DNA of 48,038 nt from positions 7,748 to 55,785 of the forward strand of contig MEKT01000173.1 of NCBI GenBank assembly GCA_001767435.1, written 5' to 3'. Both the position numbers and the translations under genes were made by a program. Below are positions 4,789-22,248 of this stretch, in pieces. This stretch comes from Acidobacteria bacterium RIFCSPLOWO2_02_FULL_65_29. GTDB taxonomy: Bacteria; Acidobacteriota; Vicinamibacteria; Vicinamibacterales; CAVVIG01. Within the stretch, counting starts at the first letter, position 1; the number at the start of each line of letters is the position of its first letter. Below the pieces are notes generated by a model. That model was given only the letters and a program-made list of their open reading frames with translations, was not told the origin of the DNA and did no database searches.

Positions 4789-4793
4789 AGGAA

Positions 4794-4818
4794 ATTATAG
4801 GACCGGGATCCATATAAT
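4794..4818. promoter_or_regulatory. Back-to-back TATAAT boxes for a divergent leaderless pair
   Basis: Minus-strand TATAAT occupies 4794-4799, 5 nt before the GTG of the 308-aa gene. Plus-strand TATAAT occupies 4813-4818, 6 nt before the ATG at 4825. Transcription would start at or next to each start codon. No -35 box was assigned, and there is no transcription evidence. Confidence 0.6.
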
Positions 4819-4824
4819 GTGCGG

Positions 4825-16876: not shown

Positions 16877-17107
16877 ATGGCTCGTTACACCCTCGTCTAC
16901 GGCGTTCGCCTCGTGCCGGAACACTCGGTGGCAGGTCTCGAAGACGCGAAGCTCTCGCTCTCCGACGGCTCGACCGCCGGTGTCACGCTGCACACCATCG
17001 ACGGCACGATCCCGCAGTTGCGACGCGGCCTCGACCGCAGCCTCGATGCGTTTTTTGATTTGCTTCCAGGCGCCGACGAAGAGGACCTGGAGAAGTTCGC
17101 GGACTAA
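16877..17107 (+). CDS. Small soluble protein, 76 aa, unknown
   Basis: Reads MARYTLVYGVRLVPEHSVAG... and ends GADEEDLEKFAD. No signal or membrane segment; it is acidic at the C-terminus, with a beta-rich first half and a helical second half. I do not recognise a family. The start is chosen because TACAAT lies 6 nt upstream. Its TAA overlaps the TAG of the convergent gene, so the two share their last bases with no terminator between. Confidence 0.6.
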   Translation: MARYTLVYGVRLVPEHSVAGLEDAKLSLSDGSTAGVTLHTIDGTIPQLRRGLDRSLDAFFDLLPGADEEDLEKFAD

Positions 17108-18027
17108 TTTCTTTCAGCCCGCCATTCGTCCAGCAGCCGGGCGGCATTCCCGCCGACCGAGCGCAAGCTGGGCGTCCACCCGAGTGCCCTGGCCCGCGGG
17201 CTGCGAATGAGCTGATCGAGCGACAGCGCGTCCGCGTAGCTCCCCATCTTGGCGCGCGCCTCGTCTATCGGCACGTGGCGGACGTCTGGAGTGAGCGGCA
17301 CGTAGGGCGAGATGGCCGAGACCAGGTCATTCACGCGCTCGTCGCCTTCGTCGTTGGCGTGGTAGACGCCGGCGGCGTCCTCGCGTCCGGCGAGTCGGAC
17401 GTACAGGTCCGCAAGGTCCCGGTCGTACACGAGGGGCCAGTGGTTGTTGCCGTCCCCGACCACCCGCACCAGACCGTTGCTGGCGGCCTTGAACAGGTCG
17501 CCGACCATCCCGGCGCTGCGGCCGTACACGACACCCGGCCGCACCACGATCGTGCGAAGCCTGTCGGTGCCGGCGCCGAGGACGTAATCCTCGTGTTCGG
17601 GCCGCCAGGAGACGTGCTGAATCGGGTTGACGGGCGCGTTCTCGGTCGCCGGCTCCGGCGTGGGTCCCAGCACCCAGGCCGCCGAGGTGTAGACCACGAA
17701 GCGCGTGTCGGGCGCCGTCGAACCGGCCGTGCGCGGACGTGTTGCCGCGGCGATGATCGTGTCGAGCGCCACCCGATCGATTGCCGGCCCGCGACCCAAC
17801 GCCGCGTCGAACGCGGTCAGAATGTAGCCGTCCTGCGCGTCGGCGGCCGCGCGATACGACTCGGGCTCGGCGAGATTGCCGACAATCGGCCGCGCGCCGC
17901 GCGCCGTCACGCGCGCCGCCTTTTCGTTGTCGCGCACGAGCGCCGTCACGTCGTGTCCGCCGCGCACGAGCGCGTCGAGCACCGCGCTGCCGATGTAGCC
18001 CGTGGACCCTGTCAGGAAGATCCGCAT
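17104..18027 (-). CDS. NAD(P)-dependent epimerase/dehydratase family protein
   Basis: 307 residues, extended SDR/atypical NmrA-like fold. The cofactor loop TGSTGYIG is at residues 6-13. YTSAAWVLG covers the Ser/Tyr area, but the usual YxxxK is not obvious: the expected site reads WRPEHEDYVL. VVRPGVVYG and WPLVYDRDLADLYVRLA are typical of the family. It is probably a NAD(P)H-binding reductase or regulator with an unclear active site. Substrate unknown; not linked to the sugar operon. It overlaps the convergent 76-aa gene by 4 nt. Confidence 0.8.
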   Translation of the reverse strand: MRIFLTGSTGYIGSAVLDALVRGGHDVTALVRDNEKAARVTARGARPIVGNLAEPESYRAAADAQDGYILTAFDAALGRGPAIDRVALDTIIAAATRPRTAGSTAPDTRFVVYTSAAWVLGPTPEPATENAPVNPIQHVSWRPEHEDYVLGAGTDRLRTIVVRPGVVYGRSAGMVGDLFKAASNGLVRVVGDGNNHWPLVYDRDLADLYVRLAGREDAAGVYHANDEGDERVNDLVSAISPYVPLTPDVRHVPIDEARAKMGSYADALSLDQLIRSPRARALGWTPSLRSVGGNAARLLDEWRAERN

Positions 18028-18190: not shown

Positions 18191-19663
18191 TTACCGGCCA
18201 GCGGTGGCGCTCGTGGCGACGGGCGTCGCGCCGAGAAAGGCCTTGAAGCCGCGATAGAGCTCCCAGAGATCGACCTTCGCCGAAACGTCCATCGGCGAGT
18301 GCATGCTCAGGATCCCGATGCCGACGTCGGCCGCGTCGATGTCGGCGTTGGCGAACCACTGCGCGATCGTGCCGCCGCCGTAGCCCGCCTTGTACGCATG
18401 CGTCTGCCAGTGCACGCCCGCGCCGGTGAACAAGCGGCGCAGCTTTGCGAAATACTCGCTGTCGGCCTGGCGGCCCGATCCGTATTCCTTGAACACGAGG
18501 CCCCACCCGAGCCGCGCCGATCCGTTGGGCAGATACGGCTGCGGAAAGTTGGGATCGAGCGCCGTCGTGCAGTCCGACACGAGCACGTTCGAGGCGCCGA
18601 GAGCGTGCCGGAGCATCAGATCGCTGTACACGGGCTCCTGGGCAGCGATGATCTCGGCCAGTCGCGTCCGAAACCACTCGGAGGCGACGCCCGTCGTCCA
18701 CGAGCTGACCTCTTCGTTGTTCACGCCGTAGGCGATCGCGGTTTTCGCCGGATTTCTGACGTCGACGATGGCGCGAAACGCCGCGAACCCGTTCGACCGA
18801 TCGTCGTGGCCAAACGCGCCCACGAGCTGACGGTCGAGCCCGATGTCGACGGGCATCTGCGCCGGCACAATCTGGAGGTCCGTCGACAGGAAATCGTCGC
18901 GCGTCAGCCCGTATCTCTCGCGAAGCGCCGCCGTCGCGGCCTCCGAGGTCAGAGCCAGCACCGGATCGAGCTCCTCTGTTTGAATGACGTCGCGGTTGCG
19001 GCGATCGAGAAAGTCCCGATCGACGTGCGGCGCCAGGTCGGGAATCAGCAGCACCGGGTCGCCGGGCGCGTGCCCGATGTCCACCGACACGATGGTCCCG
19101 TCGGTCTTCACAATGCGGCCGATCAGGGCGAGCGGCCGGTTCACCCACTGGTAGTTCTTGATGCCGCCGTGGACCGACGTATCGAGGAGCGCGATGTCGA
19201 AGCTGTCGCGGAACGGCTTCGGCTTCAGCTCGAGATGCACCGAATCGTTGTGCGTGTTGACGATGCGCGCACCCGAGGTGAGTGGGTCGGTGCCGATCAC
19301 GAACGCGATGATCGTGCGATCGCGGTTGACGGCGTACCAGCGCGAGCCGGGCCGCACGTCCGCACGTGTCGGCGATCCGGGCCAGGGCTTGAAGCCCGCG
19401 GCCTCGACGATCGCGAGGGCCTGGTGCACGAACGTCATCGCGCTCTTGGCGCGGCCGATGAACTGTTTGAAGTCCTCCCCGAAGCGCATGACCTCGTCGC
19501 GCTGCGCCTGGGAGAGCCTGGGCCAGACAGGGCCGACAGCGTCCACGGGGCCGGGCTGCTGGGCCCCGTCTCCAGCGCTCGCGGCCGCTCGCGCCTGCGC
19601 CGCGACGGACGCGGCCTGAGAAAGAACTGCGGCGACGAGGAGCGTTCGCAGCAAGACGTTCAT
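18191..19663 (-). CDS. Secreted M18-like (aspartyl aminopeptidase family) metallopeptidase
   Basis: 490 residues from the ATG at 19661-19663. A GTG 18 nt upstream is open, but the ATG starts a clean signal peptide (MNVLLRTLLVAAVLSQAASVAAQA). M18 landmarks: NTHNDSVHLELKP (first metal His), FGHDDRSNGF (bridging Asp), NNEEVSS (catalytic Glu pair), SDCTTALDPNFP (Asp) and SMHSPMD near the end (last His). All expected metal ligands seem present. M18 enzymes are normally cytosolic dodecamers releasing N-terminal acidic residues; an exported one is unusual. The TATGAT box 6 nt before the ATG suggests a leaderless mRNA and overlaps the promoter of the divergent gene. Confidence 0.8.
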   Translation of the reverse strand: MNVLLRTLLVAAVLSQAASVAAQARAAASAGDGAQQPGPVDAVGPVWPRLSQAQRDEVMRFGEDFKQFIGRAKSAMTFVHQALAIVEAAGFKPWPGSPTRADVRPGSRWYAVNRDRTIIAFVIGTDPLTSGARIVNTHNDSVHLELKPKPFRDSFDIALLDTSVHGGIKNYQWVNRPLALIGRIVKTDGTIVSVDIGHAPGDPVLLIPDLAPHVDRDFLDRRNRDVIQTEELDPVLALTSEAATAALRERYGLTRDDFLSTDLQIVPAQMPVDIGLDRQLVGAFGHDDRSNGFAAFRAIVDVRNPAKTAIAYGVNNEEVSSWTTGVASEWFRTRLAEIIAAQEPVYSDLMLRHALGASNVLVSDCTTALDPNFPQPYLPNGSARLGWGLVFKEYGSGRQADSEYFAKLRRLFTGAGVHWQTHAYKAGYGGGTIAQWFANADIDAADVGIGILSMHSPMDVSAKVDLWELYRGFKAFLGATPVATSATAGR

Positions 19664-19669
19664 GGTTAC

Positions 19670-19677
19670 ATCATAAT
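19670..19677. promoter_or_regulatory. Overlapping bidirectional -10 (ATCATAAT)
   Basis: The eight bases read TATGAT on the minus strand (19670-19675) and CATAAT on the plus strand (19672-19677). Each lies exactly 6 nt from a start codon: ATG at 19663 (minus) and GTG at 19684 (plus). Two divergent leaderless transcripts would use the same melted bases, so they may compete for polymerase. Confidence 0.6.
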
Positions 19678-19683
19678 TCACTC

Positions 19684-22248
19684 GTGGCGCGTGAGACGCT
19701 CATCGACTTCTTTCACGACCTCGCCCGGGCGCGCGGCGAATTCCTCGTGCACGACGACGGGTTTCGGGCGCGCACGTATTCCTACGCCGAGGTCGGTGCC
19801 GCCGCGCGCGGGTTCGCGGCCCGTCTGCACACCGCGGGCATGCGCAAGGGCGACGCGGTCGTCTTCTTCTGCGAGAACCGCCCGGAATGGATCGTCGCCT
19901 TCTGGGGGTGCCTGCTCACCGGCGCGGTCGTCGTGCCCATCGACTATCGCTCGTCGCCGGATTTTCTCGTGCGCGTCAGCCGGATCGTCTCTGCGAAACT
20001 CGTGCTCATCGGCCAGGACGTGCCGCCGCCTGTCGAGACCGGCGGCGCGCCGATCTGGAGGCTGCCCGACATCGAGTGGCACGACGGCGCGTCGCCGCCG
20101 GTCCCCGTCACGCGCGACGAGGTCGCGGAGATCATTTTCACTTCCGGCGCCACCGCCGAACCGAAGGGCGTCGTCATCACGCATCGCAACATCCTGGCCA
20201 ACATCGTGCCCGTCGAGCGCGAAGTGCTGAAGTATCGGAAGTGGGGACGGCCGTTCTTCCCGCTGCGCTTTCTGAACCTGCTGCCGCTCAGCCACATGTT
20301 CGGCCAGGCGATGGCGACCTTCATCCCGCCGATGCTGCCGGGCGTGGTGGTCTTCATGCGCGGGTACAACCCGGGCGAGATCGCCGCGCAGATCAAGAGC
20401 CGGCGCGTGTCGGTTCTGGTGTCGGTGCCGAAGATTCTGGACGTGCTGCGCGAGCATGTCGAACGCAGAGCGCATCGCCGACCGGCGGGGCCAGAGGAGA
20501 ACACCGGACCACGGCGCGAGGGAGTGGTCGCCGGCTCCGCCGCGCCGAAACCGACGAGCCCGCTGGTACGCGTGGCCAGGCGCTGGTGGCGCCACCGCGA
20601 CGTGCACCGGATCTTCGGCTGGAAGTTCTGGGCGTTCGTCGTCGGCGCCGCGCCGCTCGAAGCGGAGCTCGAAGCCTTCTGGGGTGAGCGTGGCTTCGCC
20701 GTCATTCAGGGCTACGGCCTGACCGAAACCGCGCCGATCGTCACGCTGAACCATCCGTTCGGGACCAAGCGAGGCTCGGTGGGCAAGGCCATCGCGGGCG
20801 TCGAGATGAAGATCGCACCCGACGGCGAGATCCTCGTGCGCGGCGAGAACGTCACCAGCGGATATTTCCACGCCGCCGAGGAAACGGCGCGCGCGTTCGA
20901 CGACGGGTGGTTTCACACAGGCGACATCGGCGAGATCGGCGAAGGCGGTCAGCTGTTCATCCGCGGACGCAAGAAGGAGATGCTCGTCACCCCCGAGGGA
21001 TTGAACGTGTTTCCGGAGGACGTCGAGCGCGTGCTCAATCGTCTGCCGGGCGTGCGCGATTCGGCCGTGGTGGGCGCACCCGGCACCGACGCCGCCGGTT
21101 CGAAAGCCGAACGCGTACACGCCATCCTGGTGCTGGACCCTGGCGTCGACCCCGACGAGATCGTGCGCGCGGCGAACGCCGAGCTCGCGGATCATCAGAA
21201 GATCCGCCGGGCGCTCGTGTGGCCGGAGCCGGAGCTGCCTCGAACCGAGGGCACACGGAAGCTCAAGCGCGCGCTCATGCGCGAATGGGTCGTCGGCGGC
21301 GGGGCCCCTCGCCACGCGCCGTCCGGCAGCGACCCTCTCGCCTCCCTCGTCGCCCGGTACGCGGGCCGCGGCGACCTGTCGCCGAAGACCACGATCGAGG
21401 AGCTGGGGTTGAGCTCGCTCGAGCGCGTCGAGCTGATGGTCGCGCTCGAGGATGCGTTCCAGACGCACCTGGACGAAGGCGCGTTTTCCGAGGCCAAGGA
21501 CCTCTCACAGCTCCGAGCGCTCGTCGAGCGCGCAGCCGTCTCCGATGTGCCGGCGGCCGAGCCGGTGGATTTCCCCGTGTGGAACCGGACGTTGATTCCC
21601 CGCTCGATTCGACGTGTGTCGCTGCCAACCTGGATTCTGCCGCTCGGCCGGGTGTTCGCGCATCTACACGTCGAGGGGCGGGAACATCTCGCGGCGATTC
21701 GGTCGCCTGTGATTTTCGCGTCGAACCATCAGAGCCACATGGACACACCGGTGATCCTGTCGGCGCTGCCCCCACGCCTGCGCTATCGCCTCGCGACGGC
21801 GATGGCGAAGGAATTTTTCAAGGCGCATTTCTTCCCCGACGAGTACGGCCGCAAGGCGTGGCTCACCAACAGCCTGAACTACTACCTGGCGGCGCTGTTC
21901 TTCAACGCGTTTCCCCTGCCGCAGCGCGAGGCCGGCGCGCGGCAGACGCTGCGCTATATCGGCGAGGTCCTCGAGAGCGGCTTCTCGGTGCTGATTTTTC
22001 CGGAAGGCCGGAGAACCGACACCGGCGCGATCGATCGATTTCGTCCCGGCATCGGGATGATCGCGGCGCGCCTCGGCGTACCGGTCGTGCCGGTGAGGAT
22101 CGAGGGACTCGACCGGGTGCTGCATCACACGTGGAGGATGGCGCGCCCGGGCCCGGTGCGCGTCGCGTTCGGCGCGCCGATGCGGCTGGTCGGCGACGAC
22201 TACGAAGCGATGGCGAAGCAGGTGGAAGAGGCGGTCAGAACGTTGTAA
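19684..22248 (+). CDS. Fusion: AMP-dependent acyl ligase, acyl carrier domain, PlsC-type acyltransferase
   Basis: 854 residues. Residues 1 to about 530 are an acyl-CoA/ACP ligase: TSGATAEPKG (P-loop variant of TSGTTGxPKG), GYGLTET, and FHTGDIGEI with RKKEMLV. A carrier domain (about 540-620) has ELGLSSLERVEL with the phosphopantetheine Ser at about S578; the usual Asp before it is Ser. The C-terminal part (about 640-854) is PlsC-like: NHQSHMDTPV (H682, D687), FPEGRRTDTG and VPVVPVRIEG. It likely activates a fatty acid, loads it on its own carrier and transfers it to a lysolipid or glycerophosphate, unlike E. coli Aas, which needs free ACP. There is an insert around residues 262-300. GTG start, leaderless. 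Confidence 0.87.
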   Translation: MARETLIDFFHDLARARGEFLVHDDGFRARTYSYAEVGAAARGFAARLHTAGMRKGDAVVFFCENRPEWIVAFWGCLLTGAVVVPIDYRSSPDFLVRVSRIVSAKLVLIGQDVPPPVETGGAPIWRLPDIEWHDGASPPVPVTRDEVAEIIFTSGATAEPKGVVITHRNILANIVPVEREVLKYRKWGRPFFPLRFLNLLPLSHMFGQAMATFIPPMLPGVVVFMRGYNPGEIAAQIKSRRVSVLVSVPKILDVLREHVERRAHRRPAGPEENTGPRREGVVAGSAAPKPTSPLVRVARRWWRHRDVHRIFGWKFWAFVVGAAPLEAELEAFWGERGFAVIQGYGLTETAPIVTLNHPFGTKRGSVGKAIAGVEMKIAPDGEILVRGENVTSGYFHAAEETARAFDDGWFHTGDIGEIGEGGQLFIRGRKKEMLVTPEGLNVFPEDVERVLNRLPGVRDSAVVGAPGTDAAGSKAERVHAILVLDPGVDPDEIVRAANAELADHQKIRRALVWPEPELPRTEGTRKLKRALMREWVVGGGAPRHAPSGSDPLASLVARYAGRGDLSPKTTIEELGLSSLERVELMVALEDAFQTHLDEGAFSEAKDLSQLRALVERAAVSDVPAAEPVDFPVWNRTLIPRSIRRVSLPTWILPLGRVFAHLHVEGREHLAAIRSPVIFASNHQSHMDTPVILSALPPRLRYRLATAMAKEFFKAHFFPDEYGRKAWLTNSLNYYLAALFFNAFPLPQREAGARQTLRYIGEVLESGFSVLIFPEGRRTDTGAIDRFRPGIGMIAARLGVPVVPVRIEGLDRVLHHTWRMARPGPVRVAFGAPMRLVGDDYEAMAKQVEEAVRTL

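Follow-up and report, generated by a model that had tools for sequence, protein, structure and literature searches.

Two kinds of bacterial promoter come closest to the site described here. At the E. coli bidirectional promoters studied by Warman, Grainger and colleagues, the two polymerase orientations are mutually exclusive, and at all five promoters tested the basal level was too weak for competition, which was seen upon strong one-way activation, according to the available part of that work (PMC12825309). This promoter class is defined by divergent start sites lying 7-25 bp apart, as stated in the available portion of PMC10268837. The other kind is the promoter of leaderless genes, which account on average for 13.3% of genes in Acidobacteria and occur in 3/3 genomes of that group, as given in the accessible text of Zheng et al. 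2011 (PMC3160421). Neither kind is new in itself; the locus analyzed here, which lies in a window (the whole stretch of DNA that was analyzed) of 48,038 nucleotides, would combine the two.

A 20-nt gap between two start codons

The gap at positions 19664-19683 of the window separates two back-to-back start codons, ATG on the - strand (19663-19661) and GTG on the + strand (19684). Positions 19661-19686 read CAT GGTTACATCATAATTCACTC GTG, where GGTTACATCATAATTCACTC represents the 20 intergenic bases, and within them ATCATAAT provides CATAAT on the + strand and TATGAT on the - strand. The features of the site and its flanking genes are the following:

19670..19677, both strands: candidate shared promoter core ATCATAAT, a pseudo-palindrome with two -10 hexamers that overlap by 4 bp
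19672..19677, + strand: -10 CATAAT serving the + gene, with 6 nt between it and GTG, conserved at -12 in the family and order
19670..19675, - strand: putative -10 TATGAT serving the - gene, with 6 nt between it and ATG, less well supported than its + counterpart
18191..19663, - strand: M18-family aminopeptidase of 490 aa whose N-terminus looks signal-like by eye (PF02127, E=1.2e-57)
19684..22248, + strand: protein of 854 aa with AMP-binding, phosphopantetheine carrier (PP-binding) and acyltransferase domains and a GTG start (PF00501, PF00550, PF13193, PF01553)
17104..18027, - strand: NAD-dependent epimerase-like gene behind the peptidase (PF01370)

Each of the opposed hexamers matches the -10 consensus at 5 of 6 positions, and their 4-bp overlap on opposite strands is one of the features expected of a bidirectional promoter. 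The promoter scan of the core site gave no match to a -35 hexamer at 16-18 nt, the element that a classical sigma-70 promoter would carry. CATAAT is without the first-position T, a base present in 79% of the -10s found at -12 in this genome. From the -10 positions, transcription is predicted to start at 19684 (+) and 19663 (-), 21 bp apart. An earlier note on this DNA had placed the hexamers, their coordinates, the 6-nt spacings and the 20-nt distance correctly to the base, and our analysis agrees with its interpretation as regards both -10s, their overlap and the predicted double leaderless geometry; its further proposal, that the peptidase and the lipid enzyme compete at the site, is not supported as the purpose of the arrangement and is taken up below.

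The 8-mer ATNATAAT occurs once in the window, where about 0.46 occurrences are expected for such a composition, and 34/100 shuffled windows contained at least one copy. The 8-mer alone is thus not significant, and the argument must rest on position and conservation.

Regarding the flanking genes, the peptidase reached 370 bits against PRK02256, under its cut-off of 529. Its reading frame can be extended mechanically to a GTG at 19681, the start chosen by our own gene caller; the signal-like sequence begins at ATG 19663 and not at that GTG. In many relatives, the epimerase-like gene that follows it here takes the first divergent place. A weak - strand sigma-70-like match (TCGACA-17-CAGAAT, 9/12) was located at 20462-20434, upstream of the peptidase gene by about 770 nt, and the simple consensus scan, which yielded 2 matches against 0.7 expected, found none on the - strand nearer to the peptidase than 20434.

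To place the site in its genomic setting, we used a sample of 1.31 of the 5.51 Mb of this draft genome, with 1021 starts called by a small codon-usage script written for this analysis in place of a published gene finder. TANNNT with its T at -12 precedes 32/1021 starts, compared with a mean of 4.8 and a maximum of 12 at control positions (-75 to -31), and -10s with at least 4/6 matches also peak at -12 (38 starts, background 6.7). The excess of -10s between -18 and -11 amounts to about 6% of starts, and 0.4-Mb samples of two relatives, G015 and G029, showed excesses of about 6% and 5%, respectively, with a less sharp peak. Together with the 13.3% reported in the accessible text of PMC3160421, these excesses indicate that leaderless genes are ordinary in this genome, which has a general TANNNT leaderless class.

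Divergent pairs of this compactness do not stand out in the same sample. Gaps of 1-60 between divergent starts were found in 11/149 divergent pairs, with no visible peak at start-to-start gaps of about 20 nt; the M18/AMP-binding pair was counted among the 149 with a gap of 2, the caller having used GTG 19681. Likewise, no genome-wide excess linked a + -10 to an overlapping - -10 in divergent pairs, where numbers are small: such a hexamer accompanied 1/7 divergent starts at gaps of 100 or less, 1/9 at gaps above 100 and 4/24 co-directional starts. Another divergent pair of this genome, at G000:C27:76897-76922, has a gap of 26 and weak TATCAT (-) and TACAGT (+) hexamers with a 2-bp overlap, each lying 8 nt from its start codon.

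Conservation of the two hexamers and turnover of the divergent gene

The + promoter was followed in 24 family-level loci, namely this genome and 23 GTDB loci, with near-duplicates such as L105/L109 included. Conservation spans only the bases between roughly -17 and -1; farther out, from -60 to -18, every position stays at or below 0.60 bit, and the 24 loci contain no conserved -35 block. Within the conserved stretch, A at -14 is found in 20 loci, T at -13 in 19, A at -11 in 21, T at -10 in 19, A at -9 in 23 and T at -7 in 22, and the C at -12, like the rest of the core, is held in 19-23 of 24. The T, C, A and C at -6 to -3 are kept in 21, 22, 23 and 16 of the 24 loci, respectively. This TCA(C), at 19678-19681 of the window between the -10 and GTG, is conserved about as well as the -10 itself, and it has no counterpart at this genome's starts with a -10 in the -12 position.

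At the level of the order, our set comprised 91 loci, one per genome and this genome included, drawn from 114 genomes with a match, the other 23 being partial or not fetched. Start codons of the relatives were extrapolated from tblastn, and 2/91 loci (L293, L294) have no start codon at the extrapolated position. A + -10 with at least 5/6 matches, 5-10 nt from the start, was present in 70/91 loci, leaving 21 without one at that threshold; the spacing is exactly 6 nt in 39/70 and 9 nt in 12/70. In G003 and G019, TACAAT replaces CATAAT at identical spacing. The + gene therefore has the mark of TANNNT leaderless genes, a -10 whose conserved position is about 6 nt ahead of the start codon, and the + side of the promoter is well supported.

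Evidence for promoter activity on the - side, as read from the same loci, is weaker. Positions -14 and -13, whose A and T are kept in 20/24 and 19/24 family orthologues, fall inside the - hexamer but outside the + hexamer. In this genome, 38 starts have a -10 at -12, and among them A at -14 (26%) and T at -13 (21%) are near background, so that AT at these positions is not a general part of a + promoter. Across the order, an overlapping - -10 (at least 5/6) was found in 45/57 loci with a divergent neighbor within 200 nt and in 2/13 without one (Fisher p=3.2e-5), where 4 of the 13 do have a divergent gene, at 206-713 nt. Relaxing the threshold on the + hexamer gave 46/61 with and 5/16 without such a neighbor, and at genus level the Fisher test gave p=0.014 at the stricter threshold and 0.096 at the laxer one. 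The GTDB set showed the - -10 in 38/42 loci with a divergent neighbor and in 5/12 without, and family f2 in only 5/12 of its divergent loci; the background, taken as the share of all + -10s in the genome sample that have an overlapping - -10, was 50/327 (15%). This association is confounded by phylogeny, as only 2-3 phylogenetically independent pairs bear on it and they give no significance.

Spacing on the - side is more variable. Measured from the - -10, the first divergent gene begins after 6-13 nt in 18-20 of 45 loci, two loci having alternative starts, and after 16-177 nt in the remaining 25-27. No distance is below 6 nt, in a count built so as to admit only starts downstream of the hexamer. 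The short spacings involve unrelated genes (M18, epimerase, DisA-like). Exactly 6 nt was observed in only 2/45 loci, this genome and G008, so most relatives are not strictly leaderless on this side. For the M18 gene in particular, the distance from the - hexamer is 6 nt here and in G008, 16 in G007, 22 in G013 and 21 in G012 (12 from a GTG), and mechanical calls put the start farther away in G003, G019 and G022. In L106 (G013) and L110 (G012), TATGATGTAA is kept upstream of M18, at 22 and 21 nt from its ATG, and an AGGTG Shine-Dalgarno-like motif stands between TATGAT and that ATG, as if a leader had been lost or gained there among the relatives. The M18 peptidase thus appears to carry a leader in some species and to be leaderless in others, behind the same TATGAT.

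The gene served by the - side also differs among relatives. In the 42/80 GTDB loci whose first divergent gene could be named, to which the partner tree is confined, this gene was an epimerase in 20, a DisA-like gene in 12, M18 in 8 and a hydrolase in 2. A quick tree of the + protein from these 42 loci requires 8 or more changes of the first divergent gene, the least possible being 3; across the sequences compared, the core stays while this gene changes. The gene orders seen (DAC-M18, DAC-epimerase, M18-epimerase and epimerase first) are mixed in a manner that fits the loss of promoter-proximal genes, after which the - face would pass to the gene behind, although the tree accommodates gain as well as loss. 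The DisA-like protein scored 25 bits against Pfam DAC, below the cut-off of 27, and a search of this genome, run without a positive control, gave no match to its gene. Proteins of this type, about 450 aa long, were seen in L118, L124, L126, L129, L132, L108 and L121, one of them with a weak DAC match. The hydrolase resembles dienelactone hydrolase by eye, its name coming from no search.

A two-way promoter and the competing readings

We consider it likely that the gap is a minimal bidirectional leaderless promoter with mutually exclusive directions, in which the + half is conserved and the - half serves a changing partner. A single pseudo-palindromic -10 region, with no recognizable -35, would bind polymerase carrying the main sigma factor either way, and once melted it would serve the enzyme in both orientations. 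The usual 7-bp step from each -10 would set transcription to start at the G of GTG (19684) and the A of ATG (19663), so that both mRNAs would be leaderless. At any moment the two orientations would exclude each other sterically, and mutual exclusion at the core is plausible by analogy with the E. coli promoters. The + half would act as the conserved owner of the site and the - half would serve whichever gene comes first in the divergent operon; M18 would have come to adjoin it in this genome, probably through loss of a promoter-proximal gene.

Some of the same observations could also be obtained if only the + promoter were real, with TATGAT a by-product of pseudo-symmetry and the M18 promoter situated inside the + coding region, giving a longer leader. 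The - -10 does persist in some loci without a divergent neighbor within 200 nt (2/13 or 5/16, depending on the threshold), the phylogenetic test lacks power, the first divergent codon is 16-177 nt away in more than half of the 45 loci, and the weak match at 20462-20434 offers a promoter-like sequence on the required strand. We nevertheless regard a purely + promoter as unlikely in view of the co-occurrence of the - -10 with a divergent neighbor (45/57 against 2/13), the short distance of 6-13 nt that separates it from the start codons of three unrelated genes (18-20/45 loci), and the lack of any - strand match nearer than 20434 in the consensus scan. A related question concerns the register of the + hexamer. 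Seven family loci with TATCATAGT (L003, L010, L011, L013 and L017-L019) have their best -10 at 9 nt from the start, a spacing shared by 12/70 order loci, which would agree with very short leaders beginning about 3 nt before GTG if the working -10 were the register farther upstream, which reads TATCAT in relatives and CATCAT here. This seems quite improbable to us, because CATCAT scores 4/6 here and CATAAT 5/6, because A at -11 (21/24) and T at -7 (22/24) are slightly better kept than A at -14 (20/24) and T at -10 (19/24), and because the TANNNT peak of the genome is at -12.

The two remaining readings concern what the conserved block is for. According to the earlier note, polymerase competition would balance the peptidase against the lipid enzyme as a regulatory switch. 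Overlapping -10s cannot be occupied both ways, and in E. coli competition arises when one direction is activated; however, the basal activity of the tested E. coli promoters is too low for it (both from the available part of PMC12825309), and the partner gene has changed at least 8 times among the relatives. Since this partner is often an epimerase, a DisA-like gene or a hydrolase, a competition dedicated to peptidase and lipid enzyme is not borne out, and partner turnover argues against any peptidase-specific purpose; we find such a switch very doubtful. An operator or another protein-binding site in place of a -10 would account for the conservation of TCAC before GTG, a motif missing where other genes of this genome have their -10 at -12. 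Even so, the block matches a consensus -10 and is spaced from the start codon exactly as in the general leaderless class, and the substitution of TACAAT for CATAAT in G019 and G003 leaves that spacing unchanged, which makes an operator highly improbable in our judgment.

Related sites and comparison with known systems

Beyond this locus, our confidence is evenly divided on whether the Vicinamibacterales possess a class of double-leaderless palindromic promoters, with a ATNATAAT core and a start codon about 6 nt on each side, that may persist as a two-way module while genes swap or vanish behind either face and may sometimes split into two -10s. The pattern YAT-N6-ATNATAAT-N6-RTG was found at 6 sites in 162 order genomes and, with shifted spacing, at 2, the backwards control giving 2 in each case. 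This excess of 6 over 2 is modest, so the exact 6/6 geometry is rare, and we rejected it as a common genome-wide device on account of these 6 sites in 162 genomes. Clear divergent pairs among the six are the core site, G014 and G043. The others are doubtful: our own gene caller puts the start of the - gene of G080 51 nt further in, G098 lacks a start codon at the TAT, and the + frame of G105 runs for only 29 codons before the locus ends.

The window itself contains a second site of related design:

4789..4824, both strands: second divergent pair, predicted leaderless, with non-overlapping TATAAT (-) at 4794-4799 and TATAAT (+) at 4813-4818

Here the - TATAAT is 5 nt from a GTG and the + TATAAT 6 nt from an ATG, and the genes encode a 308-aa protein without an assigned family and a DUF4149 protein. 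A perfect ATTATAAT palindrome lies beside the homologue of the 308-aa protein in 17/21 family loci (this genome and 20 relatives). In 10 of the 17 it is flanked on both sides by candidate start codons at a distance of 6-9 nt; on the 308-aa side, 7 of the 10 have a TTG that was picked mechanically. The four loci without the palindrome are this genome, G022, and G024 and G008, both cut short before the gene start. In G005, G007, G016 and G026, a frame of 332-334 aa stands beside the palindrome, and no DUF4149 match was found there. G043, from another family, has the palindrome with 6 nt on both sides; it was found via the pattern and is excluded from the second-site counts. Across the order, CAH-N7-ATTATAAT-N6-RTG was detected in 14/162 genomes against 0 in the backwards control, and 6 of the 14 represent one locus, the second site; with spacings of 13 and 12, the same pattern gave 2/162 and its control 1. 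In L314, tandem repeats of TGCAATCC run into the palindrome.

The DUF4149 site resembles the core site in its hexamer register, its + spacing of mostly 6-7 nt and its partner change, and differs in having a perfect palindrome in 17/21 family loci, in place of which our own genome has two separate TATAAT boxes. It thereby offers a natural experiment of one palindrome versus two separate -10s, just as the relatives of the core site offer the same promoter with other partners, or M18 with a leader. Such comparisons could show whether mutual exclusion has a regulatory use.

Two leaderless genes sharing one -10 were not found in the literature searched, whose coverage leaves most subscription journals outside. 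Papers that bring leaderless genes together with divergent genes, or with overlapping or bidirectional promoters, do not describe such pairs in their titles or the opening of their abstracts, and a search combining leaderless, Acidobacteriota and transcription start found no literature. The word "leaderless" is absent from the available text of PMC10268837, and "divergent" from the main text of PMC3160421. With the genes of Zheng et al. 2011, as described in the accessible part of PMC3160421, our locus shares a -10-like element directly before the start codon; unlike that work, which treats single genes, it presents two predicted leaderless genes on one -10 region. With the Warman-Grainger promoters it shares one pseudo-symmetrical -10 region for both strands and a predicted start distance within 7-25 bp, although the distance predicted here is 21 bp and the E. 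coli promoters prefer 18, with 10 and 23 also common, in the portions of those papers available. Unlike them, both mRNAs are here predicted to be leaderless, with start codons at +1, and because the gap has no room for a leader or a ribosome site, a -10 shared by two leaderless messages would be about the tightest arrangement possible.
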